From Myxococcales bacterium 68-20 (GTDB lineage: Bacteria > Myxococcota_A > Polyangia > Polyangiales > Polyangiaceae), in contig MKVQ01000025.1 in assembly GCA_001899635.1 (NCBI GenBank), positions 1-64,000 on the forward strand: a DNA stretch of 64,000 nt. The letters are read 5' to 3'. Positions within the stretch are counted from its first letter, which is position 1. The number at the start of each line of letters is the position of its first letter. A model generated the notes under the pieces. The model did no database searches, was not told where the DNA came from, and worked only from the letters and a program-made list of their open reading frames with translations. Positions 9,201 through 60,271 of the stretch are shown piece by piece. The position numbers were made by a program, and so were the translations under genes.

Positions 9201-9839
9201 ATGAGCACCACGGTTCACGCAGCAGAGGTCGTTCGCGAGTACGTCCCGCTGGACGAAGGGCGCATCCACGGAGTGACGTTCGACGGGAAGCTCGTCTGGT
9301 TTGCCCGCGACGACGAGATCGTCGCCTTCGATCCGGAGAAGGAGCAAGTCGTGCGTCGTCATCCCGTGCCTGCCGCCGACGCCGGGACCGCGTTCGACGG
9401 CGAGCACATCTACCAGCTCGCGCGCCACGAAATCCTGGTGATCCAGCCGGCCGACGGTCGCATCGTTCGAAGGCTCCCCGCCCCGGGGAAGGGGCAAGAC
9501 AGCGGGATGGCCTGGGCGGACGGTCACCTGTGGATCGGTCAGTGTTACGGCGCGAAGATCCACAAGGTCGACGCGAAGACGGGGGAGATCGTGAAGACCC
9601 TCACGTCCGACCGCTTCGTGACCGGCGTGTCGTGCGTCGACGGCGCGCTGTGGCACGGTGCGAGCGTAGACGGGAAGCCGAGCGAGCTCCGTCGGCTCGC
9701 GTCTGACGGATCGGTCGAGGAGGTCCTGAGCGTTCCGGTGGAGTCCATCGCCGGGGTCGAGCGAACGCGGGACGGGGACTTCTGGTGCGCCGGCGAGCGC
9801 GGAAGACTCCGCCTCGTCCGGCGCAAGAAGTCGGCCTGA
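9201..9839 (+). CDS. Small beta-propeller protein (glutamine cyclotransferase/Vgb-like fold)
   Basis: This 212-residue protein is made of about five WD/YVTN-like blades, each with a D-G-x-x-(I/L)-W/Y signature: GVTFDGKLVWFARDDEIVAFDP, GTAFDGEHIYQL and MAWADGHLWIGQ are examples. It resembles glutaminyl-peptide cyclotransferase or virginiamycin B lyase-like propellers, but no catalytic set is identifiable, so the activity is unassigned. No signal peptide: probably cytoplasmic. The ATG at 9201 is preceded by GAGAGGGA at good spacing; an upstream in-frame ATG at 9186 lacks this. It is divergent from the winged-helix regulator and followed by a strong hairpin. Confidence 0.75.
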   Translation: MSTTVHAAEVVREYVPLDEGRIHGVTFDGKLVWFARDDEIVAFDPEKEQVVRRHPVPAADAGTAFDGEHIYQLARHEILVIQPADGRIVRRLPAPGKGQDSGMAWADGHLWIGQCYGAKIHKVDAKTGEIVKTLTSDRFVTGVSCVDGALWHGASVDGKPSELRRLASDGSVEEVLSVPVESIAGVERTRDGDFWCAGERGRLRLVRRKKSA

Positions 9840-9864
9840 ACGATCGAGGCGAACGGCAGCGCCG

Positions 9865-9893
9865 GCGAGCGTGCGTCGAGCTCGCACGCTCGC
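9865..9893 (+). terminator. Strong hairpin after the propeller gene
   Basis: GCGAGCGTGCG (9865-9875) and CGCACGCTCGC (9883-9893) form a perfect 11-bp stem with a 7-nt loop, 25 nt past the stop codon at 9839. No T-run follows, as is common in GC-rich genomes. Confidence 0.6.
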
Positions 9894-10090
9894 GGCGCGG
9901 TCCGACGACCGACCTCGACGGCAGAGCAACGAAGCTCGACGAGCGCTGACCGGAGGCACGTGACCGCTTGGCGGGCGCGCCAGAGCGGACGCGACGAGCC
10001 GGCGCGCTCGCGTTCAGGTCACGAAACGCGCACGGGCATTCCGGTTGCTCGCGTTCTTCGAGAAAGGATGCGAGCAGCTCGCTCGCAACC

Positions 10091-12082
10091 ATGGCCGTGA
10101 CCCCTGCCGCTACAACGACGGACTTCCGCGCGATCTTCGAAGCGGTACCCGGCCGGTACCTCGCGCTGGCTCCCGACGAGCAATTCACGATCCTGGACGC
10201 AAGCGACGAATACCTGAGGGCCGCGAACACGAGCCGTGACGACGTCCTCGGACACGGCTTGTTCGATGTGCTTCCGCTCGAAGCGGCTGAGGCCGACGCA
10301 CCGGGCGTACGGAGCCTGTTTGCCTCACTTGACCGAATCGTGCGAACGCACTCCGGCGACAGCACCCCCGTGCAGAAGTACCGCATCCGTCGGCCCGAGG
10401 AGGAGGGCGGAGGCTTCGAGCCACGGTGGTGGAGCTCGACGAGCTCACCGGTGCTCGGAGAGCGCGGCGAGCTCCTCTACATCATCCATCGGATCGAGGA
10501 CGCCGATACCCGTGTCGAGGAGCTCGCGGCCGCCGGCAAGGCTGTGGCCGATGCCGTCGCCGGGATGCCCAGCGCAAGCGTGAGGACCGTCCTCGAGACG
10601 ATCGCGATGCAGGCGAGGAGCATGACGCACGCGGAGTACGCCAGCCTGGGCATCGGCACCGATCCCGACAAGCCGTTCGACCTCTGGGTGTTCGTCGGCA
10701 TGTCCCGGCAGCAAGCCGACGCCATCGGGCGTCACCCTCGTCCGGTTGGTGTGCTGGGCGTCATCGCCCGGGAGGGGCGGACGCTCCGCATTCGTGACGT
10801 GCGAAGACACCCCGCGTCTCGGCCGATGCCCCGCCAGCATCCCGAGGTCCGGAGCTTCCTCGGCGTGCCCATTCGCTTCCGTGGGCGCCAGGTCGGGTCC
10901 TTGTACCTCGGCAACAAGCGGGAGGCCGAGGAGTTCACGGAGAGCGACGAGCGTCTGGTCGAGATGCTCGCCGCACGCGTCGGGGTCGCGATCGAGACCG
11001 CGCGCCTCTACCACGAAGCAGGAATGGAAGGGGCATGGCTCAAGGCGGTCGTCGACCAGATGCCCGAGGGAATCCTCCTCATGGACGCCAAGGGCCACAT
11101 CACCGTGAACTCGTCGATGCTCGACCTGTCATCCGGGGACACGGGTGAGCGCGACCCGTTCGGCAACAGCATCCTCTTCGATATTCGGCGTCCGTCCGGA
11201 CAGCGCGTCCCACCGGCTCGGCATCCGAACGTCTTGGCGCTGAGCGGACAGATCACCCGCAGCGAGGAGCTCCGCTTCTACCGGAAGGACGGTCGAGGGA
11301 TCCCGGTGCTCGTCAGCGCGACGCCGGTTCGTGACGGCGACGATGCCATCGTCGGCGCGACGATGTTCGTGCAGGATATTTCCACGCTCAAGGAGCTCGA
11401 GCGGCGTCGCGAAGAGTGGGCGTCCGTCGTCGCACACGATCTCAAGCAACCGGTGAGCACGATCAGCATCGGCGCGCAGCTGCTAGCGCAGCGATTCCGG
11501 GACAGCCCCGAGGTGCTCAAGACCGTCAACCACATCCAGGCCGCCGCCGTTCGGCTCACTCACATGATCGACGACCTCATGGACGCCTCGCTCCTCGAAG
11601 CACGCAGCATGAAGATCGAACCTGCCGACATCGACCTCGGCCAACTCGCGCGGCAGATCGTCGAGCGCTCGGGACACGCGCCAACCGAGGTTCGCGTCTC
11701 CGACCACCTCCGCCCCGTTCGAGCCGATCCCCACCGTGTCGAGCAGGTCCTCGCAAACCTCATCTCGAACGCCGCCAAGTACGGCGAGCCGGGCTACCCG
11801 CTGGTCATCGACGTACGGTCCGACACTGACGAAGCGGAGGTCACCGTCACCAATCGCGGTCGCGGGATCGCGGCCGATGAGATCCCGCGGCTCTTCGATC
11901 GCTTCTTCCGATCGACGGCCGCACGCCGAAGCGGCCAGGTCGGACTGGGGCTCGGACTCTACGTGGCCAAAGGCCTCGTCGAGTCACACGGGGGACGGAT
12001 GTGGGTCGAGAGCACTCCGAACGAAACGACGAGCTTTCACTTCACGCTGCCGCTGTCTGCGAGCTCGAAGGTGATGGCGTAG
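10091..12082 (+). CDS. Sensor histidine kinase, PAS-GAF-PAS-HisKA-HATPase
   Basis: This 663-residue soluble kinase has an N-terminal PAS domain (about 8-125, FRAIFEAVPGRYLAL), a GAF domain (about 160-310), a second PAS (about 320-435), a HisKA dimerisation domain with phosphoacceptor His in VVAHDLKQPVSTI (about 446), and an HATPase domain with N-box NLISNAAKYGEP (about 555) and G-boxes GRGIAADEIPRLFDRFF and GLGLGLYVAKG. No membrane segment is present, so it should sense a cytoplasmic signal. The ATG at 10091 starts immediately before the first PAS; the open frame from TTG 9968 adds only non-conserved residues. No response regulator is adjacent, so it is an orphan. Confidence 0.9.
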   Translation: MAVTPAATTTDFRAIFEAVPGRYLALAPDEQFTILDASDEYLRAANTSRDDVLGHGLFDVLPLEAAEADAPGVRSLFASLDRIVRTHSGDSTPVQKYRIRRPEEEGGGFEPRWWSSTSSPVLGERGELLYIIHRIEDADTRVEELAAAGKAVADAVAGMPSASVRTVLETIAMQARSMTHAEYASLGIGTDPDKPFDLWVFVGMSRQQADAIGRHPRPVGVLGVIAREGRTLRIRDVRRHPASRPMPRQHPEVRSFLGVPIRFRGRQVGSLYLGNKREAEEFTESDERLVEMLAARVGVAIETARLYHEAGMEGAWLKAVVDQMPEGILLMDAKGHITVNSSMLDLSSGDTGERDPFGNSILFDIRRPSGQRVPPARHPNVLALSGQITRSEELRFYRKDGRGIPVLVSATPVRDGDDAIVGATMFVQDISTLKELERRREEWASVVAHDLKQPVSTISIGAQLLAQRFRDSPEVLKTVNHIQAAAVRLTHMIDDLMDASLLEARSMKIEPADIDLGQLARQIVERSGHAPTEVRVSDHLRPVRADPHRVEQVLANLISNAAKYGEPGYPLVIDVRSDTDEAEVTVTNRGRGIAADEIPRLFDRFFRSTAARRSGQVGLGLGLYVAKGLVESHGGRMWVESTPNETTSFHFTLPLSASSKVMA

Positions 12083-12112
12083 CGAGCGGGCCCCCAAGCA
12101 GCTCACCGGCGA

Positions 12113-13027
12113 TCACTTGATGATGGGGATGCCCCCACCGTCCTCGCTCATCGCCGGTGCCGCCGTGGTCGAGCCGGCGCCCCAGAACGCGAGCGCCGGT
12201 GGCGGATTCGCGACGGCGATGTCCTTCGTCACGAGCTGGTTGTTCGCCCACTCGATGGAGAAGACCTTGCCCTCCTCGGAGAAGCCAAAGACCGTACCGG
12301 CCCAGAACCCGAGCCCGTAGACGGCGTCATGGTTCACGCTGCCGTAGTTCTGGATCATGTCTCCGGTCTTCGGGTCGACCTGGATCAAGCAGTCGTTGCA
12401 GACGTTCCCCTTGACGGTGAGGAACGTACCGCCGCCGGTGACGGAGACGATGTCTCCGCTCGACGTGTAGCCGCCCTTCAACGCGCCGATCGTGCTCACC
12501 ACACCGGTCGCCGTGTCGATCCGCACGTACGTCGCGCCGTTGTAGCCGACCAATGCCTCGGCCGTGTCGTCGACCGTCCCCTTCGGAACGAAGGACAGGG
12601 AGTTCGGGTACGAGCCCCTGGCGATGAGCGTACAGGTCGCCGTGCCGGTATCGAGCCTGTAGAGCCCCTCGAACGTCGTGACGAAGGCGTTCGAGTCCTC
12701 ATCGAGCGCGAGGTCGATCACGCTCGAACACCCTCCATTGAAGGCGGCCACGACGGTCACGTTCTTCGTGACCGGATCGACCTTGTAGAGCGTGCCCGGG
12801 CTGTGGGCGTACACGATCGGTACCGGCGGAGGTGCTGCGCGATCCTCGCCAGCGCCGGCGTCGGAGACCTCGTCGGGGAAGGACTGCCCGAGCCCGCCCC
12901 CATCGTTACCGGAGCCCCGCCCTGCGTCCGCGTCGATGAAATCGCTGCGATCACTACTACCGCAGGCGAGCGCAATCGCCGCCAGGGCGAGGCCGAAGCC
13001 TGCAAGTGCGTATCGCGTCTTGTTCAT
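12113..13027 (-). CDS. Beta-propeller lipoprotein
   Basis: This 304-residue protein has a signal peptide ending in a lipobox (AAIALACGS), an Asp/Gly-rich linker typical of myxobacterial lipoproteins, and a propeller-like body (about 70-290) with repeated elements such as GTLYKVDPVTKNVT, GLYRLDTGTATC, TYVRIDTATGVV and LIQVDPKTGDMI. This repetition suggests a YncE-like or quinoprotein-like fold without a visible active site. Cysteines at about 99, 137 and CNDC may form disulfides. The ATG at 13027 begins the signal peptide MNKTRYALAGFG. It is transcribed in the same direction as the GH44 gene upstream, 230 bp away, so probably separately. Function unknown. Confidence 0.75.
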   Translation of the reverse strand: MNKTRYALAGFGLALAAIALACGSSDRSDFIDADAGRGSGNDGGGLGQSFPDEVSDAGAGEDRAAPPPVPIVYAHSPGTLYKVDPVTKNVTVVAAFNGGCSSVIDLALDEDSNAFVTTFEGLYRLDTGTATCTLIARGSYPNSLSFVPKGTVDDTAEALVGYNGATYVRIDTATGVVSTIGALKGGYTSSGDIVSVTGGGTFLTVKGNVCNDCLIQVDPKTGDMIQNYGSVNHDAVYGLGFWAGTVFGFSEEGKVFSIEWANNQLVTKDIAVANPPPALAFWGAGSTTAAPAMSEDGGGIPIIK

Positions 13028-47427: not shown

Positions 47428-48582
47428 TCAGCGGACGACGACGGCGTTGTGGTACACCAGCGGCATCGGGAGCGTCGTCGTCGATCGCCACGCCGTCACG
47501 TTGCCGTCGGGGGTGAGGTCTCCGACGAAGACATCGCTCGAGTAGCCACCGCCCGGCGCCTCACCTCCGAGGACGTACAGTCGATCGTCGACCACCACGA
47601 TGTCGTGGCGGTTCCGCGTTGCTGGCAACGGCTTCGTCTTGCGTACGGCGCCAAGGTTTCCGGAGCTGTCGATCGGATAGACGAGCACGTCGTCGACGCT
47701 GACCCCTGCCCCTGTCAAACCGCCCACCACGAGGAGCGAATTGCGATAGACGACGGCTCGAGCGTAGTTGCGCGCGGAAGGCAGGTTCCCCGCGGGGACG
47801 AACGGAGCGAGGCCGCCTCCGTCGAAGCTGGCGGTCAGGATCTCGGCCCGTCGCGCGGAGCTCTCGTCCATGCCGCCCACGACATAGACGTTGGAGGCAC
47901 TCGAAGCGGTCGCGAAGCGTGTGAGCGGCGAGGGCAGCGAAGGTCCGGCGACGAACAGCCCCACACTCCCCACGTCGAGCTCCCCGTGCTCCACGTCGCC
48001 GCGCGCGGGACCGTCCAGTCCTCCCATCACGAAGACGTGCGAGCCGCGCATCACCGCCCCTAGATGCTGCCGCGGCGTGAACGCGCTGTCCGACTCCGAG
48101 AACCCGGTGATCACCCCGCCGTCGTAGGGTCCGACGAGGAACTTCCCGCTGGCCCCCACCCCCTTCAAGAGACCGCCGGCGATCGCCACGAACGAGTCAG
48201 TCACGACGGCAGCCCCGTACAGACACGGACGCGGGACCGGCGGCCCGGCCTTCCAGGCGCCGAGCGATCCATCGCCCTGGACGACCGCGTAGCTCGTCGC
48301 ACCGTCTTCCCGGAGGTTCACTCCGTCGCTCGAGCCGCACATCACGTAGATGCGTGCGGGCGGCCTACCGGCGTCTGCATCGCCGGCTTCGGTACCGGCG
48401 TCGACGGCCCCCTCACTCGTGGTCTGGATGACGTCCGCGGTCGACGCATCGTCCGGAGGCTGACTGGGGACTCCTTCAGGCGTACCTCCCGCGAAGTCGT
48501 CGGTCGCAAACAGCAGGGAACAACCGACGAGCGTCACGCTTCCCACCCCACAGGCGAGCGCGAGAAGTCGGTGAAGGCTCAT
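47428..48582 (-). CDS. Kelch-like beta-propeller lipoprotein (paralogue A)
   Basis: This 384-residue protein has a signal peptide with lipobox (TLVGCSLLF), an Asp/Ala/Gly-rich linker (about 25-75), and six kelch-like repeats with the signature (V/I)YV-GG: ARIYVMCGSSDGVN, SFVAIAGG, HVFVMGG, NVYVVGG, SLLVVGG and RLYVLGG. Kelch propellers usually bind proteins or glycans; the copper-radical residues of galactose oxidase are not evident. It is closely related to the protein at 54666, with shared GDLTPDGNVTAWRSTTTLP-like C-termini. It lies downstream of the DNRLRE/PA14 lipoprotein in the same direction (132 bp gap), and its ATG at 48582 begins the signal peptide. Confidence 0.82.
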   Translation of the reverse strand: MSLHRLLALACGVGSVTLVGCSLLFATDDFAGGTPEGVPSQPPDDASTADVIQTTSEGAVDAGTEAGDADAGRPPARIYVMCGSSDGVNLREDGATSYAVVQGDGSLGAWKAGPPVPRPCLYGAAVVTDSFVAIAGGLLKGVGASGKFLVGPYDGGVITGFSESDSAFTPRQHLGAVMRGSHVFVMGGLDGPARGDVEHGELDVGSVGLFVAGPSLPSPLTRFATASSASNVYVVGGMDESSARRAEILTASFDGGGLAPFVPAGNLPSARNYARAVVYRNSLLVVGGLTGAGVSVDDVLVYPIDSSGNLGAVRKTKPLPATRNRHDIVVVDDRLYVLGGEAPGGGYSSDVFVGDLTPDGNVTAWRSTTTLPMPLVYHNAVVVR

Positions 48583-48714
48583 GAAACGGAATCCTCGGTG
48601 GGTGACGCCGGGTCGAGCAATCGGCATCGGACTCACTTCACGACGAAGGCTCGTTTCGACCGCCGCTCATCGCGGGATCGAAACGAGCCGATCGATGTTC
48701 ACAGTATGGATCAA

Positions 48715-51174
48715 TCAGTACACGGTGCCATACACCTTGACTGGGAGCGGGTTGCCGGCCGCATCGGTACGAACGATGTCGACCAGTCTCTGTTTTGTCG
48801 CACCGTACGACTGGATGTTCACAGCGCCGGGGGTCGGTCCGTTGTCGAAGTCGACGCCCACGAACTTCAGCTTGGCCGAGCCGCCTTCTGCGAAGAGCCC
48901 CACATGCAAGCTGCCCCCGGTGCCCTGGTCGGCAGGCTTCGGCGACTTGCCACCGTTGCCCTTGTAGTCGGACCAGTTCGACCCACCGATCCATTCGAGC
49001 TCGAAGCCGGCTTGGGTCTTCTCGATGTTGAGGCCGGGCCCCTGGTTGAACCGGGTGTTCACGTTCGACAAGACGTGTTTTCCGCCGCTGTTCCAGATCG
49101 TGAGCATTCCAGCGTAGGTCTCGCTCGCGTCGGTGTCCTCGATCCTGCCTCCTGGGGAGCTGTTGATCATGATCGGTGAGGAACCGACACGCTTACCGCT
49201 GATGTCACGCGTGCCGAGGATGCACTTGCTGATGAGGTACGAGCCCTTGTTCGAGGAGATGGCGCCGGTCTCGCCGTTCGGCACGCCCTGAAAGCCTCGC
49301 CAGCCCGCGGTCAGGTCGAGCCGCTCGTACGTCTGCACGGTCCCGCTGCTCGACAGTCCGCTGTAGGCGACGCCGCCGAGATCACGTGTCCGCATCGTGA
49401 AGTTTCCGAAGTACGGCGCGGTGTGCTCGGCCTCGAAGACCTTCTCCTGGGCGCCGATCAGCTCGCCCATCGTCTGACCGCTCGTGTTGATCCAGGTCCG
49501 TCCAGGCGACACCCAGCCGTCGGCCTGGACGCTTCCCTTGTCTTCGATCTGCCGCTCCTGAGTCCACGACGAGGCGCTCATCTCGATGCGCGCATTCGGA
49601 CCGAGGCCGAGGATGCCTCGTCGGGCACGCGCCATCGCGAACCACGTTCGCGCGTTGCGGATCCCCTTGTAGCGGCTGACGATGGGAACCTGACCGTTGC
49701 GCCCCTGCACCGACTGGACGCCGGCGGCGCGGAACCCTTCCGACGAATCCACGATGTATGGCGCGGCGCGCTCGGGGAGGACGAGGATGTCGTTCGGACC
49801 GAGCTCCGTCGCGAAGACGTCCTCGAGGTCGCGATTGGCCGGCCACGACGGATTCCACATCACGTAGCTCGCATCGGCCGGGGCCTTCAGAGCAGCACGA
49901 GCCGCTGCGAGCGTCGGGAAGCTGATGGGGCCCCTGCCCGAGCTCCCTGCTCCGGAGTCCGTGCCGGGAGCGCCGGAGTCCGTACTGGGGGCGCCGGCGT
50001 CGGCGACGGGCACGCTGTCCGGGAACAGCGAAGCCGCGGGAACGATTTGCTTGGGCTGACTCGGCGACGACCACGAGAGCTGCACGACCGCGCCCCCCGT
50101 GGCCTCGTAGTATTCGAGCTTGATGGCGTACTTCTGACCAGCCGTGAGCGCGATCGTCCCAAGGTTTTCGACCGCAGCGTGGTTCGTCCAGTTGTCGATC
50201 ACCTTCTGGCCGTTGACCCAGAGCCGGACGCCGTCGTCACTCCTCGTGTAGAAGGTGTACGTCTGCGAATGAGCCGGAAGGACCTGGCCGGACCAGCGAA
50301 CGCTGAAGTTGTCCGTACCCACGCTCGTCCCCGAAGGCGCAGCAGAGCCCCAGTCGAAATTCACGGTCGAATCGGTGCGCGTCGTGGCGAGCGCCTCGAA
50401 GCTCTTCCCCGTGTAGTACTGCGCGAGCAGGCCGGTGCCGACCGGCGCGGGTGTGTCGTACCCGACGGAGAACCGGGGACGGTTGGCCGCCGTCGACACC
50501 TCGGACGAATCGAACTCCAGGCCATCCATGTTCGTCGGCGCCTCGAGCACGAAGCCGTGATTCGTCGACGGCGAGGCGACCCAACCTTGCACGACTCGAA
50601 CGCCGTCGGCGTTCAGCGATAGCGTGTACTTTCCCACCGTCGTGGGCAGGAGGACGCCGAGGGGAGTCGACCCGTGGTCTGCGCCGCGTGCGCCGCCTGG
50701 GCTCCAGGCGCTCCCCGCTCGCGCCGTGTTCCACGTGACGACGGGCTCGTCCCATGCGCGGTTCAACGCGTAGAGCGTGTACCCCTCGCCCCCGGTCGCG
50801 TTGGTCACGTTGATGGTCAGCGACGCCGACTTGATCGTGCTCGCCTTTGGGATCGCGCTCAGATCGAAGCGCAGCACGGCCGTGGCCGCTTTGCCCGTCC
50901 CGGACGGGTAGTCCATGTCGACGCGCATCGTCGTGTCGCTTCCGACGTTCGTCGTGGGACTCGCCTGCTGCAGGACCGCATCCGTCGTTCCCGCGTAGCT
51001 CGTCGAGGGGGCGACGCCGTCCTGGAAGGACATCGTCGTCGTCAGTGCGTCGGCCTGAGCGAACGCCTCGTCACCGTCTCCGCTCTCGACACCGCAGCCG
51101 CCCCACGCCCCCGCAGCGATGACCGCCGTTGCGCAGAGGGTGATTCTCGACATCGTTCGACGCCACGCTGTCAT
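48715..51174 (-). CDS. Surface lipoprotein with DNRLRE, PA14 and beta-helix regions
   Basis: This 819-residue protein has a signal peptide and lipobox (AGAWGGCG), a DNRLRE/CBM96-like domain (about 48-230; TAVLRFDLSAIPKASTIKSA, VTWNTARAGSAW), a PA14 domain (about 245-385; GLLAQYYTGKSFEAL, YTFYTRSDDGVRLWVNGQ, VIDNWTNHAA), an Asp/Ser/Gly linker, and a long C-terminal parallel beta-helix-like region (about 415-819). These modules bind or remodel polysaccharides in other proteins, so attachment to or cleavage of an extracellular glycan is inferred; a lyase active site is not identifiable. The ATG at 51174 has GGAG 6 nt upstream. The sigma factor gene lies 200 bp upstream in the same direction and may control it. 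Confidence 0.82.
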   Translation of the reverse strand: MTAWRRTMSRITLCATAVIAAGAWGGCGVESGDGDEAFAQADALTTTMSFQDGVAPSTSYAGTTDAVLQQASPTTNVGSDTTMRVDMDYPSGTGKAATAVLRFDLSAIPKASTIKSASLTINVTNATGGEGYTLYALNRAWDEPVVTWNTARAGSAWSPGGARGADHGSTPLGVLLPTTVGKYTLSLNADGVRVVQGWVASPSTNHGFVLEAPTNMDGLEFDSSEVSTAANRPRFSVGYDTPAPVGTGLLAQYYTGKSFEALATTRTDSTVNFDWGSAAPSGTSVGTDNFSVRWSGQVLPAHSQTYTFYTRSDDGVRLWVNGQKVIDNWTNHAAVENLGTIALTAGQKYAIKLEYYEATGGAVVQLSWSSPSQPKQIVPAASLFPDSVPVADAGAPSTDSGAPGTDSGAGSSGRGPISFPTLAAARAALKAPADASYVMWNPSWPANRDLEDVFATELGPNDILVLPERAAPYIVDSSEGFRAAGVQSVQGRNGQVPIVSRYKGIRNARTWFAMARARRGILGLGPNARIEMSASSWTQERQIEDKGSVQADGWVSPGRTWINTSGQTMGELIGAQEKVFEAEHTAPYFGNFTMRTRDLGGVAYSGLSSSGTVQTYERLDLTAGWRGFQGVPNGETGAISSNKGSYLISKCILGTRDISGKRVGSSPIMINSSPGGRIEDTDASETYAGMLTIWNSGGKHVLSNVNTRFNQGPGLNIEKTQAGFELEWIGGSNWSDYKGNGGKSPKPADQGTGGSLHVGLFAEGGSAKLKFVGVDFDNGPTPGAVNIQSYGATKQRLVDIVRTDAAGNPLPVKVYGTVY

Positions 51175-51342
51175 GCAGATCTCCGTTGAATGAGCACCCG
51201 CTCAGCGAAGAGCTCGGGCAGACGAACGACGCGGCACCGACGTGTGCTCATCGAGACAGTGGCGCGCGTCGACGGAGAGATGCTCGCGCACGCGCTCTCT
51301 TGCGCAGCACGCGCAATTTTGGCCGTAACCGCCCGAATCCAG

Positions 51343-51371
51343 GCGAAAAAAGAGGTACTCCCCGTCAGGGG
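51343..51371 (-). terminator. Intrinsic terminator after the sigma factor gene
   Basis: On the minus strand the sigma gene stop at 51378 is followed by CCCC-TGAC-GGGG (51371-51360) and, 8-10 nt later, a run of six T (51349-51344). This is the only hairpin-plus-T-run I noted in the window and separates the sigma gene from the surface lipoprotein gene. Confidence 0.6.
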
Positions 51372-51377
51372 CCCCCG

Positions 51378-52253
51378 TCAGCCCCGCCGGCGCAACACTT
51401 CGCTCAAGTGCACGTCGAGCTCGCTCTCGACGATGGCTCGCAGGTCGTGAACACTCGTGGTTCCGATCGAGAGGTCCTGTTTCACGTCGTCCAGCAAGCG
51501 GCTCCGCAGGGCTTGGAGCCGGCGCGCCATCGTCGACTCGTGCACGTGATAGATGCGCCCCAAGGCTGCGAGCGACATCCCTTCGATGAAGTACAGACGT
51601 AGAAGTGCACGCTCTCGTTCGTCGAGTGCCTGAAGGGCGCGCTCCAGCGCATCCCCCATCAGCCCGAGCCCCTCGCGCTTGAGGAGAGCGAGCTCGGGCG
51701 AGCCGACGCGCGTCGCAGGACCAACCTGACGAGCGGGATCGGCAGCAGCGCCATCGACCGCCGCCCGGCGCGCTCCGCGGCGCAGCAGGTAGCGCGCCTC
51801 GCGGATCGCCGTCACGCGCAGCCAAGCGCCGAGCGGCGAGCGCCCCGTATACGTGAGGATCGCAGGCTCACGCTCGGGCTCGCGTACCAGGAGCCGCATC
51901 CGCAAATTCTGAGCGGCTTCGTCGATGAGCCCGTCGACGCGACGATGCACCCGGCGTGCGTATTCGATGGCGGGTGACAGGAGCTCCGTGTCGAACGTCG
52001 CGATGGCTGCCTCACTTCCAAGCGCGCACGCGCACGCGAGGTAGAGATCCTCGACGTGCACTGCCGCGAGCGTTGCGGCGACGTCTGCGTCCCTCCCCAC
52101 ATGTCTCGCAAGGTGCGCGACGAACGCCGACGACTCGATCTCGAGACGTGGCCGAGCCCGACGCGCACGCGCGACCGTCGCCTGGAGCACGGCTTCGCCA
52201 TCATCGAAGCGAGACCCGCCGTTCTCGACGAACGTGACCACCATGCTCGCCAT
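51378..52253 (-). CDS. Sigma-70-like (ECF-type) transcription factor
   Basis: This 291-residue protein has a sigma-2-like helical region (about 95-175; PAIEYARRVHRRVDGLIDEA, RSPLGAWLRVTAIREARYLL) and a sigma-4 helix-turn-helix (about 215-270; ALQALDERERALLRLYFIEG, MSLAALGRIYHVHESTMARR). It is longer than typical ECF factors, with about 90 extra N-terminal residues. It is divergent from a Ser/Thr kinase gene, and the start codons are within about 20 bp, so the pair shares one short control region. The kinase carries an anti-sigma-like zinc segment, which suggests a regulatory pair. An ATG at 52244 is an alternative start. Confidence 0.82.
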   Translation of the reverse strand: MASMVVTFVENGGSRFDDGEAVLQATVARARRARPRLEIESSAFVAHLARHVGRDADVAATLAAVHVEDLYLACACALGSEAAIATFDTELLSPAIEYARRVHRRVDGLIDEAAQNLRMRLLVREPEREPAILTYTGRSPLGAWLRVTAIREARYLLRRGARRAAVDGAAADPARQVGPATRVGSPELALLKREGLGLMGDALERALQALDERERALLRLYFIEGMSLAALGRIYHVHESTMARRLQALRSRLLDDVKQDLSIGTTSVHDLRAIVESELDVHLSEVLRRRG

Positions 52254-52271
52254 ATGCTGATTTCTTGCCGT

Positions 52272-53843
52272 ATGGTCGCTACGATCTCAAGCGCATTGGG
52301 GACGTGCCTCGACGATCGTCAGCTGCTCTCGTACGTGCAGGGGGCGCTCGCTCCCGATGAGCGCGAGCAGCTGGATGCACATCTCGGAAGGTGCCCCGCC
52401 TGCTGCGAGGTCGTTGCGGAGACCACGAAGCTCCTCGACGCCGACTCGCTCCCCGCGAGCTCGCTGACGTCCATCGCGAGGACGCCGTTCGAAGAGCCGG
52501 CAGAGGCCGACGTACCTGCGAGCGTGGGCCGGTACCAGCTCTTGTCGATCCTCGGGCGCGGCGGCACGGGCGTCGTCTATGCCGCTCACGATCCAGAGCT
52601 CCACCGACGCGTCGCGATCAAGCTGCTACGGGGTGACGTGCTCGAGCGGAGCAACGACGACGGCCGAGCGCGGTTGCTGCGCGAGGCACGGGCGATGGCT
52701 CGTGTGTCCCATCCGCACGTCGTGGTCATCTACGACGTCGGCATCTGGTTGGAGCAGGTCTTCGTCGCGATGGAGCTCGTCGAAGGACGCACGCTGCGTA
52801 CGGTGCTCGAAGACGAGCGCATCTCGTGGCGGAGACGCCTCGACTGCGTGATCGAAGCCGGACGGGGCCTCTGCGCCGCTCACGCAGCGGGCCTCGTCCA
52901 CCGCGATTTCAAACCCGAAAACGTGCTCGTTGGTGACGATGGCCGCGTACGCGTGACGGACTTCGGCCTGGCGAAACCTGCCCGTGGCGACCGTGGCGAA
53001 GACGAGAGCGGGGACACCGGCTCCAAATCGCCACGCGAGGTTCTCGAGACGGTCACGCTCACCGGGCGCACGACGGGAACCCCCGCGTACATGGCTCCCG
53101 AGCAGTTCCTCGACACGAGCACCGACGCGCGGGTCGATCAGTTTGCGTTCTGTGTGGTGGTCCACGAGGCACTCTTCCGAACGCGTCCCTTCGCCGGTAA
53201 GGCGGTCGCCGAGATCGCGCGCAACGTGCTCGAGACTCGCATCACGGACGTGTCCGGGGCGATGCCTGCCGATCTCCCCGAGGGCGTTCGCGCGGTCATC
53301 TTGCGCGGACTTTCGCGTGATCCGAACGAGCGTTTCCCGAGCCTCGAGCACCTGCTCGCCGAGCTCGAGGCTCTATGCGGCGTGAACGAGGACGCTCGAA
53401 CGAGCGTCGAGATCGTCGACGACCGCGCCATGCAGCACACAAGCGTGTCGGTCGAGAAACCACGAAGACCAGCCCTTCGGCGACGGAGCATCGTCCTGCT
53501 GGCCTCGACGACGATCGTGCTCGGCACGAGCGTGTCGATCGCGTGGCGCTCGATCCGCTCGAGCGAGCCAGCTCCTCCGATCACGTCGCCGCAAGACGAT
53601 CTCTCGCGAGAGGCGCCCGCTCGCCGGGACATGAACCGGATGGCCGCCAATGTCCCCGCATCGAGCGCAGTCGCACCACCGGTCTCCGTCGAAGCGAGTC
53701 ACTCGACCACCGGCAGCGCAGCGAAGCCCTCCGCCCAACCGAGTGCTCCACGAAGCCACGGCCCGGCGCCCGTCGTGAGGGGCAACACGCGCGCGACCCG
53801 GCGCTCGCAACCATTGGGAGATCGTGTCGAGAATCCGTTCTGA
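52272..53843 (+). CDS. Ser/Thr protein kinase with N-terminal zinc-binding anti-sigma-like segment
   Basis: This 523-residue membrane kinase begins with a zf-HC2/ZAS-like motif (LLSYVQGALAPDEREQLDAH, then LGRCPACCEVV: His-x3-Cys-x2-Cys pattern). The kinase domain (about 87-355) has the glycine loop GRGGTGVV, catalytic HRDFKPENV, DFGLAKP and APE in YMAPEQF. A transmembrane helix (about 418-438) and a Pro/Ser/Ala-rich extracytoplasmic tail follow. ZAS modules in anti-sigma factors bind and hold ECF sigma factors, so this protein may both bind the divergent sigma factor and phosphorylate it or a partner; this is inference. ATG 52272 starts just before the zinc segment; ATG 52254 is possible. The next gene overlaps its 3' end by 20 nt. 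Confidence 0.85.
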   Translation: MVATISSALGTCLDDRQLLSYVQGALAPDEREQLDAHLGRCPACCEVVAETTKLLDADSLPASSLTSIARTPFEEPAEADVPASVGRYQLLSILGRGGTGVVYAAHDPELHRRVAIKLLRGDVLERSNDDGRARLLREARAMARVSHPHVVVIYDVGIWLEQVFVAMELVEGRTLRTVLEDERISWRRRLDCVIEAGRGLCAAHAAGLVHRDFKPENVLVGDDGRVRVTDFGLAKPARGDRGEDESGDTGSKSPREVLETVTLTGRTTGTPAYMAPEQFLDTSTDARVDQFAFCVVVHEALFRTRPFAGKAVAEIARNVLETRITDVSGAMPADLPEGVRAVILRGLSRDPNERFPSLEHLLAELEALCGVNEDARTSVEIVDDRAMQHTSVSVEKPRRPALRRRSIVLLASTTIVLGTSVSIAWRSIRSSEPAPPITSPQDDLSREAPARRDMNRMAANVPASSAVAPPVSVEASHSTTGSAAKPSAQPSAPRSHGPAPVVRGNTRATRRSQPLGDRVENPF

Positions 53844-54666
53844 GACGCGCGCAGGCATGATCGCGGCGTCTGCCGCCGCGGTCGGCATGCTGATCACCAC
53901 GGAGGTGCGTGCGGAGCCTTCGCCGGCGGCCGACGCCAAGGCCCTCTACCGTGAAGGCGCACGACACTACGATGTCGGCGAATACGACCAGGCCGTCGAC
54001 TACTTTCAACGCGCGTATCTCATCACGGGAGCGCCGATGCTCCTCTTGAACATCGGTCAGGCCCACCGTCTGAGCGGCGCATGCGCACTGGCAGCCGCGG
54101 CGTACAGGAGATACCTCGAAAGAGCTGGAGCCTCGGAGCATCGCGATGAGGTCGAGCGGCGGATCGTCGAGATGGACGAATGCGCGGGCGTCCGCACGAC
54201 GCCTCGAGCGCCCTCGAATGAATCGCTCCCTGCGAGGCCCGCTGCCGAGAACCCGAGCGCCGCGCCCTCGGACGACCTTCGCGCCGAAGCCCCCTCGACG
54301 AGCTCGTCGTGGCGCACGCTCGGCTGGGTTGGTCTGGGCGCCGGAGTCACGGGCGCGGCGCTGGGAGCGGTAGGCCTCGGGCTCACGCTCGACGCACAGG
54401 CAGGGCTCGATCGTGTGTGCGCCTCGGATGGGGCGTGCCCTCGCACGGCGGGAAGCCGGCTCGACGCCTACGAGCGCTGGCGCGTGGTCGCCATATCTGG
54501 CGCCGCGGTCACCATCGTCGGCGCCGCGGCGGCGATCGTAGGATTCATGGCGACCCCGTCGAACCAGAAGAGCGCCTCGACCAGGAGCGCGCACGAACGC
54601 TCGAGTGATGTGGCGATCGAACCATGGCTCGACCTCTCGGCGGCAGGGCTCCGCGGAACTTTCTGA
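53824..54666 (+). CDS. TPR-containing secreted/membrane protein
   Basis: This 280-residue protein has a signal-type N-terminus (MIAASAAAVGMLITTEVRA), two TPR motifs (about 38-105; ADAKALYREGARHYDVGEYD and LNIGQAHRLSGACALAAAAY), a Pro/Ala-rich linker, and two hydrophobic helices (about 165-190 and 225-245). It ends GLRGTF, resembling the FGVAGTF end of the protein at 57748. TPR partners of Ser/Thr kinases in this phylum are common; the substrate or ligand is unknown. It overlaps the kinase gene by 20 nt and its stop overlaps the next start by 1 nt, so the three genes form a tight operon. Confidence 0.8.
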   Translation: MSRIRSETRAGMIAASAAAVGMLITTEVRAEPSPAADAKALYREGARHYDVGEYDQAVDYFQRAYLITGAPMLLLNIGQAHRLSGACALAAAAYRRYLERAGASEHRDEVERRIVEMDECAGVRTTPRAPSNESLPARPAAENPSAAPSDDLRAEAPSTSSSWRTLGWVGLGAGVTGAALGAVGLGLTLDAQAGLDRVCASDGACPRTAGSRLDAYERWRVVAISGAAVTIVGAAAAIVGFMATPSNQKSASTRSAHERSSDVAIEPWLDLSAAGLRGTF

Positions 54667-55751
54667 TGAAGAGCCGCACGCATCTTGCTCGCGTTGCCGT
54701 GACCGCAGTCTTGGTCTTCGCCATGGGGTGCCGTTCGTACTTCCTGGCGGACGAGCCTTCGGACGCTGGCGGGGGGAATGCGGAGGTAGGAGCCGCGGAC
54801 GCGAGCGTCACCGCGAAGGCGCGGAGGATTTACGTCTACGGAGGCTCTCCCGACGGCGTCACGTTGCCGGAGGAGCCCATGGCTCACTACGCGGAGATTC
54901 TCCCCGACGGATTGCTTGGCCCCTGGCGAGCGGCACCCAAGCCGCCCACGTCGATGATCTGGCACTCGTCGGCCCAGGGAAGAGACTTCATCGCCCTTCT
55001 GTCGGGGATCGCTCGCCCGCATGGCGGCAACTTGAAGATCTTCGTCGGCTCGGTCGCCGACGGTGCGGTGACGAGCTTCGTGACGTCGCCGGACCTGTTC
55101 CCCAACCCGATCCATCACGGCGCATCGCTCATCCGCGGAGACGTGCTCTACGTGATGGGCGGACAGATCGGCGACGACAAGCCTCCCACCGCAGACGTCT
55201 GGCGCAGCGCGATCACCGCCACGACCTTCGCTCCCCCGGTACGTGTCACGCCGTTGCCGGCACCGGTCGCGCGGATGGCGATGGCCGAGGGCGCGGGTTC
55301 CGTCTTTCTGGTGGGAGGCACCGACCAGAACAACGCAAACACGACGAGCATCCTTCGAGCGCGATTCCAAGTCGACGGATCGCTCTCGACCTTCGAAGCG
55401 CAGACGCCTCTGCCCTCCGGGCGGCGATACCTCGCAGCCGCCGTGCATCGAAGCTCACTCCTGGTCGTCGGAGGGCAAGCGGTCGAAGAGATCGACAACG
55501 TGCTCACCTGCCCGATCGACGCCTCCGGGAACGTGGCGCCATGCGTCGAGACGACCGCCCTTCCGGAGCCACGCTCACGCCATCGCGCGGTCATCCACGA
55601 TGGGCGGCTCTATGTCGTGGGAGGACGTACCAAGTCCGGGGGCAAGGATGTCCTCGTCGGCGACCTGAACGACGAAGGCGGGATCGTCGGCTGGCGAAAC
55701 ACGAGCCCGCTCCCCACCTCTGCGATCTACACGACGCTCTTGTTGCTGTAG
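54666..55751 (+). CDS. Kelch-like beta-propeller lipoprotein (paralogue B)
   Basis: This 361-residue protein has a signal peptide with lipobox (LVFAMGCRSY) and six kelch-like repeats (RRIYVYGGSPDGV, VLYVMGG, SVFLVGG, SLLVVGG, RLYVVGG). It matches paralogue A at 47428 along its length, including VGDLNDEGGIVGWRNTSPLP near the C-terminus, but has a shorter linker and lacks one Cys pair. Its ATG at 54666 overlaps the preceding TGA (TGATG), giving translational coupling with the kinase-TPR unit. Likely surface-bound, binding a protein or glycan. The last codons lie at the edge of a duplicated segment (55746). Confidence 0.85.
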   Translation: MKSRTHLARVAVTAVLVFAMGCRSYFLADEPSDAGGGNAEVGAADASVTAKARRIYVYGGSPDGVTLPEEPMAHYAEILPDGLLGPWRAAPKPPTSMIWHSSAQGRDFIALLSGIARPHGGNLKIFVGSVADGAVTSFVTSPDLFPNPIHHGASLIRGDVLYVMGGQIGDDKPPTADVWRSAITATTFAPPVRVTPLPAPVARMAMAEGAGSVFLVGGTDQNNANTTSILRARFQVDGSLSTFEAQTPLPSGRRYLAAAVHRSSLLVVGGQAVEEIDNVLTCPIDASGNVAPCVETTALPEPRSRHRAVIHDGRLYVVGGRTKSGGKDVLVGDLNDEGGIVGWRNTSPLPTSAIYTTLLLL

Positions 55752-57747: not shown

Positions 57748-58725
57748 TCAGAACGTGCCGGCGACGCCGAACGGGCCCGCGATCCAGCGCGGCGACTTCT
57801 TCGCCGACGTCGATGCCGGGTCGCCCTTCGGCGACTCGACGTTCGGGTTGAGCAGCCCGTAGACGAGGACGGCGGCACCGACGCCGACGACGACGAATGC
57901 CACCGTCGACACGGTGCCGAGCGTCTCACCACGCTCGATGTCGGCATGCGTGTCCTGCGGACAGCGGACGCCCCGATCGCAGCGCCCGGCGATGTCGGCG
58001 TGGACGCTGAACGCCATGAGCCCCGTGACGGCGCCCACGGCCGCGCCGACTCCGGCGATGCCACCGCCGATCCACACGAGCGAGCTGGTGCTCGTCTCCT
58101 GCTTGGCCTTCTCCGGGTGATCGGGGCTCGTCTTCGGCGGTGACGGCGCCGCGCCGGCGAGCGTGAGCTCCACCGTCTTGGTCTCCCCCTCGGCGATGTC
58201 GACCGTCTGGCGCTTCTCGTCACCTGCGAGCGACGCGACGATCTCGTGCTTGCCCGGGTTCACCTTCAACGGCACGTTGATGCTCGACGACGAGATGTCG
58301 GAGTCATCGAGCTTCACCTGCGCATCGCTCGGGACCGAGATCGTGAGCGTCCCGAGCTTCGGCGCGATCTCGTCGGCAAGCAGCTTCGCCTCCTTGCGTG
58401 CGCGCTTGAAGGCGCGCGACTCATCCGCGCGCACGGGGTAACGCGCAGCCTCGAGGAACGTCGCGCGCGCTTCCACGAGCATCCCCAGCTCCTGCTGCGC
58501 CTTCCCGAGATCGAGCCCGGTCGTCGGGACGCGCATGATCGCGTGCGCCTTTTCGAAGTCCTCGAGCGCGCCCATCAGCTGCCCGTTCTTGCGCTTCTCT
58601 CGTCCCGAGAGCAGCAGCGTGCGCGCCGTCTCGCGCTCGGAAGGCGTGGGCTCGGCGCTCGCCGAACGCGTCGTCAGCATCAACCCGAGCGCGAGCGAGG
58701 CCGCAAGGATCCGGATCACTCGCAC
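57748..58725 (-). CDS. TPR/PEGA-like secreted protein
   Basis: This 325-residue protein has a cleavable signal (ALGLMLTTRSASAEP), a TPR-like region (about 30-110; LLLSGREKRKNGQLMGALED), a PEGA-like beta domain (about 125-190; LTISVPSDAQVKLDDSDISS, VNPGKHEIVASLAGD), a Pro/Lys/Ser linker, two hydrophobic helices (about 220-245 and 275-298), and an end SPRWIAGPFGVAGTF. The terminal Phe resembles outer-membrane barrel ends, but no barrel is evident. It begins at GTG 58725, one nt after the stop of the upstream kinase gene, so the two are co-translated. Its 3' end has been copied to 55746. Confidence 0.82.
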   Translation of the reverse strand: MRVIRILAASLALGLMLTTRSASAEPTPSERETARTLLLSGREKRKNGQLMGALEDFEKAHAIMRVPTTGLDLGKAQQELGMLVEARATFLEAARYPVRADESRAFKRARKEAKLLADEIAPKLGTLTISVPSDAQVKLDDSDISSSSINVPLKVNPGKHEIVASLAGDEKRQTVDIAEGETKTVELTLAGAAPSPPKTSPDHPEKAKQETSTSSLVWIGGGIAGVGAAVGAVTGLMAFSVHADIAGRCDRGVRCPQDTHADIERGETLGTVSTVAFVVVGVGAAVLVYGLLNPNVESPKGDPASTSAKKSPRWIAGPFGVAGTF

Positions 58726-58726
58726 G

Positions 58727-60211
58727 TCAGAAGCCTACATCGTCGTCGTCGACCCGGCCGCCCTTCTTCCCCGAGGTCGCGCGGGGAGGCTTGCGGACCG
58801 GAGACGCCGTGGGTCGAACGGTGGGTGCCGGAGCCGCCGGAGCCGCGCTCGGAGGAGGCGGCGCGATCACCACGATGGACGGCGTGAGCGCCGGCGGGGC
58901 AATGAGCTCCGCCGTTGGCGGGACCGTCGGCGCCGGCGGGACGGCCGCTGTCGGCAGGGCCGTCGCCGCTGGCAAGACCGTCGTCGCTGGGAGCGGCGGC
59001 GGCAGCTCGGCCGCCGGGGGAAAGACCGGCTCCTCACGGCGCAGGCCATAGCCGACGCGGAAGGCACCACCGATCAGGAGGACGGCGGCCGCGGCGCTCC
59101 CCATGACCCACCACTTGAAACGCGGCGACGTGAGGTACGGAGAGTGCGTGATCGCCGAAGGGCCGAGCGTCGCGCCGACGCCGTCGAACCCCATTGGCCC
59201 CGAAGGCGCCCCCGACGGCGGCGGCGGCATGAGCATGGGGCCGCTCGGCGGCGGCATGAGCATGGGGCCGGTCAGGTTTCGCCCCGTGCTCGGCCTGGCG
59301 AACGGATGCGATCCCGCCCCCGCCATGAACAGCCTGCTCGTGGTGATGTGCGCGAGGTCGCCGAGCGCCATCGCGAGCGTCTCTGCCATCTCCTGCGCCG
59401 ACGCGAAGCGGTCGCGGGGCTCACGCGCGAGCGCGCGCTCGATCCACGCATCGACCGCAAGCGGGAGGTCCGGCCGGGTCTGGGTCACTCGCGGCGTGCC
59501 CTCGTTGAGGATCGCGTGGGCGATGTTCGCGACGTGAGCGCCCCGGAAGGGCACCGCCCCGGTGAGGCAGTGGAACGCGAGGACACCGAGCGCCCAGAGA
59601 TCGCTCCGATGATCGATCGCCCCTACCCCGCCCATCTGCTCCGGGCTCATGTACGCCGGCGTCCCGAGGAGCGCGTTCGTCGCAGTCATCGTCTCGTCCT
59701 CGAGACGCTTCGCGATGCCGAAGTCGACGAGCTTCACGAACGGGCGCGGGCTGCCGTTGCACATGAAGACGTTGGCCGGCTTGATGTCTCGATGGACGAT
59801 GCCTCGCTCATGCGCCTTCGAGAGCGCGGCGGCGACCCCATCGACGATGTGCTGCACCTCGTCCGGACGGAGATGGCCCCGGGCGCGAAGGACCTTCGCG
59901 AGGTCCTGCCCCTCGAGCAGCTCCATCACGATGTAGGGCACGCCCCCCTCGGTCACGCCGTGGTCGAGCGTCTGGACGACGTGGGGGCTCCGCACCTGGA
60001 TCGTCGCGACGACCTCGCGCGAGAAGCGGGCGCACGCCTCCTCGTCGCTCGTGAGCGACTCGGAGAGGAACTTCACGACCACCTCGCTCTGGAGCTTTCG
60101 GTGGCGTGCGAGCCAGACGGTGCCCATCCCCCCGGCTCCAAGACGGCGCACGAGCGCGATATCGCTCGTAACGTCGTAGCCAGGCTTGAGAGCCCCCATG
60201 CCTCGAATCAT
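58727..60211 (-). CDS. Ser/Thr protein kinase with extracytoplasmic Pro-rich tail
   Basis: This 494-residue kinase has an N-terminal Hanks domain (about 15-280): glycine loop GAGGMGTV, Lys in VVVKFLSE, catalytic HRDIKPANV, DFGIAKR, and YMSPEQMGG. A Pro/Met/Gly-rich stretch (about 315-355), one membrane helix (about 370-390) and a Pro/Ala-rich tail follow, ending in acidic DDDDVGF. Unlike PknB it has no PASTA repeats. It is translationally coupled to the downstream TPR/PEGA protein. Start choice is uncertain: ATGs at 60229, 60211 and 60199 are all possible. Confidence 0.88.
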   Translation of the reverse strand: MIRGMGALKPGYDVTSDIALVRRLGAGGMGTVWLARHRKLQSEVVVKFLSESLTSDEEACARFSREVVATIQVRSPHVVQTLDHGVTEGGVPYIVMELLEGQDLAKVLRARGHLRPDEVQHIVDGVAAALSKAHERGIVHRDIKPANVFMCNGSPRPFVKLVDFGIAKRLEDETMTATNALLGTPAYMSPEQMGGVGAIDHRSDLWALGVLAFHCLTGAVPFRGAHVANIAHAILNEGTPRVTQTRPDLPLAVDAWIERALAREPRDRFASAQEMAETLAMALGDLAHITTSRLFMAGAGSHPFARPSTGRNLTGPMLMPPPSGPMLMPPPPSGAPSGPMGFDGVGATLGPSAITHSPYLTSPRFKWWVMGSAAAAVLLIGGAFRVGYGLRREEPVFPPAAELPPPLPATTVLPAATALPTAAVPPAPTVPPTAELIAPPALTPSIVVIAPPPPSAAPAAPAPTVRPTASPVRKPPRATSGKKGGRVDDDDVGF

Positions 60212-60271
60212 ACCCTTCCGCGGGGCCATCCCGTCGAACGGAAGGCTCCCGAGGAGCGACCCGAAGCTGTC

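Follow-up and report, generated by a model that had tools for sequence, protein, structure and literature searches.

A TIGR03001 sigma factor paired with a zinc-finger Hanks-type kinase in Myxococcales: a recurrent cassette and a putative four-gene envelope-signalling module

Two described modes of sigma-factor control come closest to the locus reported here. In ECF43 sigma factors, according to the part of PMC8999054 that deals with them, region 2.2 is devoid of acidic residues and phosphorylation supplies the charge for RNA polymerase binding. Class I anti-sigma domains, in the portion of PMC7406223 that covers them, bear an Hx3Cx2C zinc mark; in solved complexes, helix 1 of the anti-sigma makes contact with sigma region 4, and helix 4 with region 2. 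In a 64,000-nucleotide (nt) stretch of DNA from Myxococcales bacterium 68-20 (GenBank assembly GCA_001899635.1, contig MKVQ01000025.1, positions 1 to 64,000; hereafter the window), a sigma-70 factor gene stands divergent to the gene of a Hanks-type kinase with an N-terminal zinc finger, and two further genes follow the kinase. We give about even chances to the reading that these four genes constitute an envelope-signalling module in which the finger of the kinase sequesters the sigma factor and signalling releases it. The elements on which this reading builds are shown by the sequence: the domain content of the proteins, the recurrent adjacency of sigma factor and finger-bearing kinase (finger-kinase), one conserved four-gene block, a conserved junction, and two acidic positions kept in the sigma factor. 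The proposed components are:

51378..52253, minus strand: sigma-70 factor of family TIGR03001 (Sig-70_gmx1), 291 amino acids (aa); core part, by family score and an orthologue in a relative
52254..52295, no strand: stretch separating the divergent starts of the sigma and kinase genes; conserved in the relative and a candidate for a shared regulatory element
52296..53843, plus strand: Hanks-type kinase with N-terminal zf-HC2, predicted transmembrane segment and 99-residue tail; core, with Pkinase and zf-HC2 above their cut-offs
53824..54666, plus strand: putative secreted protein resembling tetratricopeptide repeat (TPR) proteins, 280 aa; core part, signal peptide read by eye
54666..55751, plus strand: kelch lipoprotein B, 361 aa, kelch propeller; core, with kelch families above cut-off

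An earlier note on this DNA had reported six open reading frames, these four and two more to the left of the sigma gene, and all six are present and intact at the coordinates listed here and below. It had ascribed to the kinase an N-terminal zinc-binding, anti-sigma-like segment, which profile searches bear out: zf-HC2 scored 25.2 bits against a cut-off of 22.2, Pkinase also exceeded its cut-off, and the N-terminus contains HLGRCPAC, a match to Hx3Cx2C. The kinase carries the catalytic motifs HRDFKPEN and DFG, and has a hydrophobic segment followed by a 99-residue tail that ends in PLGDRVENPF and had no Pfam match. The 20-nt overlap of the kinase and TPR genes is in the sequence, conditional on a GTG start, as is the 1-nt overlap of the TPR and kelch B genes, which reads TGATG in the relative too. 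The TPR assignment of the third protein needs qualifying, for its TPR_2 match is weak (21.4 bits against a cut-off of 27).

The window sigma factor scored 183.3 bits against the TIGR03001 cut-off of 154.6, over positions 1–243 of the 244-position model, and is thereby a member of Sig-70_gmx1; among Pfam families, region 4 alone exceeded its cut-off. Four of the six best sigma copies in the same genome pass the TIGR03001 cut-off. A structure prediction of the sigma factor (pLDDT 40.5) was unusable, and no interpretation was drawn from it.

The pairing of such sigma factors with finger-kinases was surveyed at 90 sigma loci. Of these, 85 are matches at E ≤ 1e-25, that of the window included, which come from 35 of the 98 genomes searched; the other five are the best remaining own-genome copies. 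The number of matches is a lower bound, with at most 24 candidates scored per genome, and the 84 sigma factors of relatives were picked by similarity to the window sigma factor, not by TIGR03001 score; two of the own-genome copies (L044 and L045) fall below the TIGR03001 cut-off. Distances run between BLAST matches rather than gene ends, contig ends truncate several loci (e.g., L104, L164, and L175), and the finger was found by a pattern that itself prescribes the H and both C ligands.

A kinase with a finger lay within 3 kb of the sigma factor at 71 of the 90 loci, a kinase without one at four and no kinase at 15, and 34 of the 35 genomes having such sigma loci held at least one pair. Pairs within 400 bp were divergent in 44 cases and co-directional in 13. 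When up to three nearest kinases per locus were counted, the finger was present in 57 of 58 kinases less than 400 bp from the sigma factor, five of seven at 400–1200 bp, nine of 16 at 1200–2900 bp, and one of 15 beyond 2.9 kb (nearest vs. farthest class, Fisher P = 6e-13, uncorrected for relatedness). This internal control, together with the 71 loci and the orthologous block described below, supports the coupling of sigma factor and kinase as partners that the earlier note had proposed. The sole finger-less kinase closer than 400 bp, at L044, has by eye a similar segment without the ligands. That kinase (9803–12283) is divergent to a TIGR03001-like sigma factor, and its ligand-free, finger-like segment is reminiscent of non-zinc anti-sigma domains. 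At L141 and L175 a finger was seen by eye where no kinase had been scored, and L045 had no kinase within 5.5 kb.

We think it quite improbable that the finger has some other partner or a structural role, with sigma factor and kinase encoded as neighbours that make no direct contact. Two of the nine zf-HC2 matches in the window genome do lie away from any sigma match, as such an account would allow. Against it, the association of finger and sigma genes depends on distance and recurs in several orientations, and seven of the nine matches lie within 215 bp of a sigma match (all sigma matches at E ≤ 1e-3 counted); in one of the seven cases finger and sigma factor share a frame. A 290-aa frame on contig C40 of the same genome (L203, 874–1743) has a sigma match followed by a zf-HC2 match and is a possible natural sigma/finger fusion.

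The candidate genes after the kinase vary: among ten scanned against Pfam they encode TPR or PEGA proteins, a trypsin-family protease, and a beta-lactamase-family protein, and others, by eye, are further kinases or the sigma factor itself. The sigma factor and finger-kinase make up a recurrent cassette with changing neighbours. At three loci that resemble one another (L130, L137, and L143) a co-directional pair is followed by a glycine-rich, lipoprotein-like frame whose repeats look beta-propeller-like by eye (the L130 frame had no Pfam match), and at another three mutually similar loci (L152, L168, and L178) the finger-kinase is followed by a secreted protein, a trypsin-family protease at L152 and alike by eye at the other two. 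An L-x-D-R type motif (PLGDRVENPF, GLLDRK, ALSDRK) is often found at the end of short kinase tails, as in the window (53800–53843) and in the kinases at L080, L041, L123, L133, L147, L160, and L179. Some members of this set (the window, L080, L133, L147, and L160) are then followed by a secreted TPR/PEGA-like protein ending in an aromatic residue; tail motif and aromatic-ended protein together may be a periplasmic contact signal.

The complete four-gene arrangement recurs on JAHFDV010000178.1, a 10.3-kb contig of a Myxococcales metagenome assembly, with sigma factor, kinase, TPR protein, and kelch B in the same order and orientations and with identities to the window proteins of 61–63, 51–54, 49, and 46–48%, respectively. 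The sigma factor of this relative is the nearest among the 98 family genomes (locus L080/L084) and lies 2.5 kb from the kelch match, which is the only one found in its genome (assembly ∼83% complete). Beyond the sigma factor, the next frame matching any query lies 0.75 kb away and encodes a different kinase; the contig continues for 1.3 kb past the sigma factor, and the two left-hand genes of the window were not found in that span, though a left wing farther off may exist there. As far as one relative shows, the conserved unit would be the sigma factor plus the genes to its right. The earlier note had cast all six genes as one mirror-like system; the sigma–kinase–TPR–kelch B part of that neighbourhood stands, and the six-gene arrangement was rejected as a conserved unit because no left wing was found alongside the block in the one relative that has it.

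Searches for further instances of the block returned JAHFDV010000178.1 only. A kinase search of 12 genomes (11 of the same genus plus the relative) found no other kinase of the genus that matched over nearly its full length at E ≤ 1e-60; one genome (G096) had two partial kinase-domain matches. With the kelch profile, 14 of 183 genomes had a match at E ≤ 1e-25; beyond the window genome and the relative, only G166, of the same genus, had matches better than 1e-50, and its kelch-bearing 8.9-kb contig held a kinase and no sigma match.

The region between the divergent starts had been described as a shared stretch of about 20 bp; it is probably about 42 bp instead, the TTG at 52296 being the preferred kinase start (alternatives at 52254 and 52272). 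In the kinase frame of the relative, the first ATG, GTG, or TTG after the stop is a TTG that aligns with window position 52296. From the sigma start to this TTG, 32 of 42 bases (76%) are identical to the relative, including an exact TGCTGATTTCTTG, as against 42–48% of third codon positions in the sigma and kinase genes. The binomial P is 4e-5 at p = 0.45 and 0.025 at the regional mean of 0.61, and 19% of the region's 42-column windows reach or exceed that identity. From this comparison the junction is likely a shared regulatory element, and we treat it as a putative one.

We infer the following sequence of events for the four-gene module. The zf-HC2 finger of the kinase, predicted to be cytoplasmic, would bind the sigma factor and hold it at the membrane; the finger alone could act as the membrane tether, perhaps with the kinase domain shielding sigma region 2. 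The short tail, presumed periplasmic, would receive an envelope signal, perhaps through the TPR protein. Activation of the kinase, with phosphorylation as the putative release step, would alter the contact between finger and sigma factor and free the latter, which, with acidic core-binding residues of its own, would transcribe the divergent operon through the 42-bp junction, possibly in an autoregulatory manner. The broader proposal, that stripped-down zinc fingers fused to Hanks kinases are, in this bacterial family, a recurrent class of sigma regulator in which one membrane protein both holds the sigma factor and releases or activates it, is tentative, and we would put it a little short of an even chance.

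Residues 109–112 of the window sigma factor align with the DxED motif of nine ordinary sigma factors of the same genome (picked by pattern from 24 loci), D111 and E112 falling on the last two motif positions. An acidic residue (D or E) occupies position 112 in 89 of the 90 sigma factors and position 111 in 66, and the replacement of the acidic region 2.2 motif by uncharged, phosphorylatable residues that characterizes ECF43 is not seen in the window sigma factor. Because acidic core-binding residues are kept, the sigma factor should be at least partly competent alone, and something must therefore restrain it; with its class I zinc mark, the finger is the candidate for this role. Several observations weigh against restraint by the finger. 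The first acidic motif position (109) is usually non-acidic in the family. The last finger cysteine is separated from the glycine loop of the kinase by a median of 50 residues (range 30–286, 62 kinases), in linkers that look low in complexity by eye (25 sequences), so that an anti-sigma helix 4 is not evident between finger and kinase domain. At 16 of the 90 loci no finger-like partner was found, and the full four-gene block occurs in one other genome only. Finally, sigma and finger distances correlate at 0.75 over 63 pairs and at 0.13 among distant pairs; the strength of this correlation comes mostly from close relatives, and it is therefore not used as main evidence.

With helix 4 not evident, the finger might instead dock the sigma factor as a substrate for the fused kinase, whose phosphorylation would turn the sigma factor on. 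We regard this activation scheme as possible, if rather unlikely. The usual loss of the first acidic position agrees with it, as do the kinases themselves, which carry the catalytic motif HxDxKxxN in 63 of 71 paired cases over the stretch examined, with DFG in all 63. Kinase-activated sigma factors exist, EcfP/PknT and EcfK/PknS being the examples in the consulted part of PMC8999054. A weak lead in the same direction is the C-terminal Ser277, a serine in 70 of 74 paired and 10 of 16 unpaired sigma factors (P = 0.0017, uncorrected for relatedness; the paired group includes L044, L141, and L175, which have no scored finger-kinase and were added by eye). The almost invariably acidic last core-binding position argues the other way, for it differs from the STTA motif of EcfP, and these sigma factors should depend less on phosphate there. 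Moreover, neither the ECF43 section nor the available part of the PknS paper mentions a zinc finger on the kinase.

Of the two schemes we favour sequestration with signal-dependent release. The remaining genes lie to the left of the sigma gene:

48715..51174, minus strand: DNRLRE/CBM96/PA14 lipoprotein; neighbour outside the conserved block, assigned by domain matches
48648..48689, no strand: perfect 12-bp inverted repeat with an 18-nt loop in the gap between the PA14 and kelch A genes; possible terminator or operator
47428..48582, minus strand: kelch lipoprotein A, 384 aa; kelch B paralogue, none found in the relative

That all six genes form one system, with regulated, glycan-binding kelch propellers at both ends, seems to us very doubtful. 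Kelch A and kelch B are paralogous, as the earlier note had claimed (38% identity), and are the only two members of their subfamily found in the genome, where they flank the sigma/kinase pair: kelch B was the only match to kelch A in 11.9 Mb at E ≤ 0.001, and a different kelch-containing frame, of 1130 aa, lies on contig C43. Carbohydrate-related domains are also present in the set, in the PA14 protein. These points are set against the failure to find the left wing beside the sigma factor in the relative and against a loose spacing on this side (203 bp from the sigma gene to the PA14 gene and 132 bp from there to kelch A) interrupted by the inverted repeat. That repeat has no obvious T run by eye and could separate transcription of the PA14 and kelch A genes. 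No shared upstream match was found either: when the sequences upstream of the PA14 gene were compared between the two genomes by exact k-mers, no non-coding match of at least 10 bases was shared, and the upstream stretches of the PA14 and kelch A genes had no exact match of 9 or more in common. A shared promoter motif was rejected as a candidate, the comparison of upstream PA14 (both genomes) and kelch A having yielded one 10-mer, which is coding in the relative. The left/right symmetry is superficial, and either of kelch A and the PA14 protein could lie inside or outside the sigma regulon.

Kelch families exceed their cut-offs in both kelch A and kelch B, and an AlphaFold2 model of kelch B, built on an alignment of three sequences (pLDDT 75.2, pTM 0.77), supports the propeller; the lipoprotein signals of the kelch and PA14 proteins were read by eye. 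Glycan binding by these propellers drew no support from the model. The best 50 of 402 Foldseek matches to kelch B at E ≤ 0.001 (E 4.8e-12 to 9.6e-10) are peptide-binding or other kelch domains, among them Plasmodium Kelch, KLHL3, KLHL12, KLHL20, and Keap1, several in peptide complexes, together with designed proteins, and they give no hint of it. As judged from this model, glycan binding by kelch B is neither shown nor excluded, and the protein could be a sensor, an output, or both.

In the PA14 protein the DNRLRE and PA14 domains that had been proposed were found, together with a CBM96 domain, and it is the only one of the six proteins with carbohydrate-related families (CBM96 and PA14); its C-terminal half, a putative beta-helix in the earlier note, was covered by no family or solved-structure match. 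The solved structure closest to its PA14 domain is that of RsgI3 PA14 (E 2.7e-70), a likeness that identifies a domain of that type and does not make the protein an anti-sigma factor. Its apparent orthologue in the relative is cut by contig ends and spread over two other contigs (residues 4–422 at 66% and 427–819 at 81% identity), on which nothing else matched the window-gene queries. In the same relative (G008), an N-terminal DNRLRE and/or PA14 part recurs in eight other frames of 552–938 aa at 44–59% identity (contigs C208, C547, C56, C475, C251, C283, C589, and C679; 22 candidates, 10 of them scored), which would fit a common module that presents various C-terminal domains.

Elsewhere in the window, 57748–60229 on the minus strand encodes a second Hanks kinase, with no finger match, and then, by weak matches, a TPR/PEGA-like protein, which repeats the kinase-then-TPR order of the sigma/finger-kinase locus.

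Taken together, the six genes named in the earlier note are real, and their mirror symmetry is superficial; of its interpretation, the sigma/kinase part is supported and more general than thought, and the single system with glycan binding is not supported.

The locus is best placed by comparison with described systems. The window sigma factor is a member of TIGR03001, the Myxococcales family 1 sigma factors; the entry is silent on a kinase partner, and the pairing with finger-kinases is what was measured here. No description of TIGR03001/finger-kinase pairs was found among the papers listed in open-literature searches, which did not cover the 2021 ECF re-classification, where one could stand. 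RsgI-type anti-sigma factors combine a sigma-binding domain and an extracellular domain for carbohydrate binding in a single polypeptide. In the window, a PA14 domain whose closest solved counterpart is that of RsgI3 sits on a separate, non-conserved lipoprotein encoded nearby rather than on the sigma partner, and the locus is not of the RsgI type. With the ECF43 pairs EcfP/PknT and EcfK/PknS the locus shares, in both the window and the relative, a sigma gene adjoining a Hanks-type kinase gene; it differs in that the sigma factor belongs to TIGR03001 and keeps two acidic core-binding positions and in that the kinase has an N-terminal zinc finger. As in class I anti-sigma factors such as ChrR and RsiW, many of them membrane-bound according to the part of PMC7406223 consulted, an Hx3Cx2C finger is encoded beside the sigma factor, but here the finger belongs to a protein that also contains a kinase domain with catalytic motifs, and no helix 4 is evident.

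Kinase-linked sigma regulation is known, and what differs here is an anti-sigma-like finger fused to the kinase. In the large myxobacterial genome of Sorangium So0157-2, 109 sigma factors, 6 anti-sigma proteins, and 347 sigma-related proteins are given in the part of PMC3696898 that lists them. Annotation would probably label a finger–kinase fusion as a kinase and overlook its part as a sigma partner. If the proposed function is correct, the pairing could supply anti-sigma factors that have been overlooked under the label of kinases; two signalling strategies would be joined in one protein, and each such kinase would gain its neighbouring sigma factor as an obvious target.

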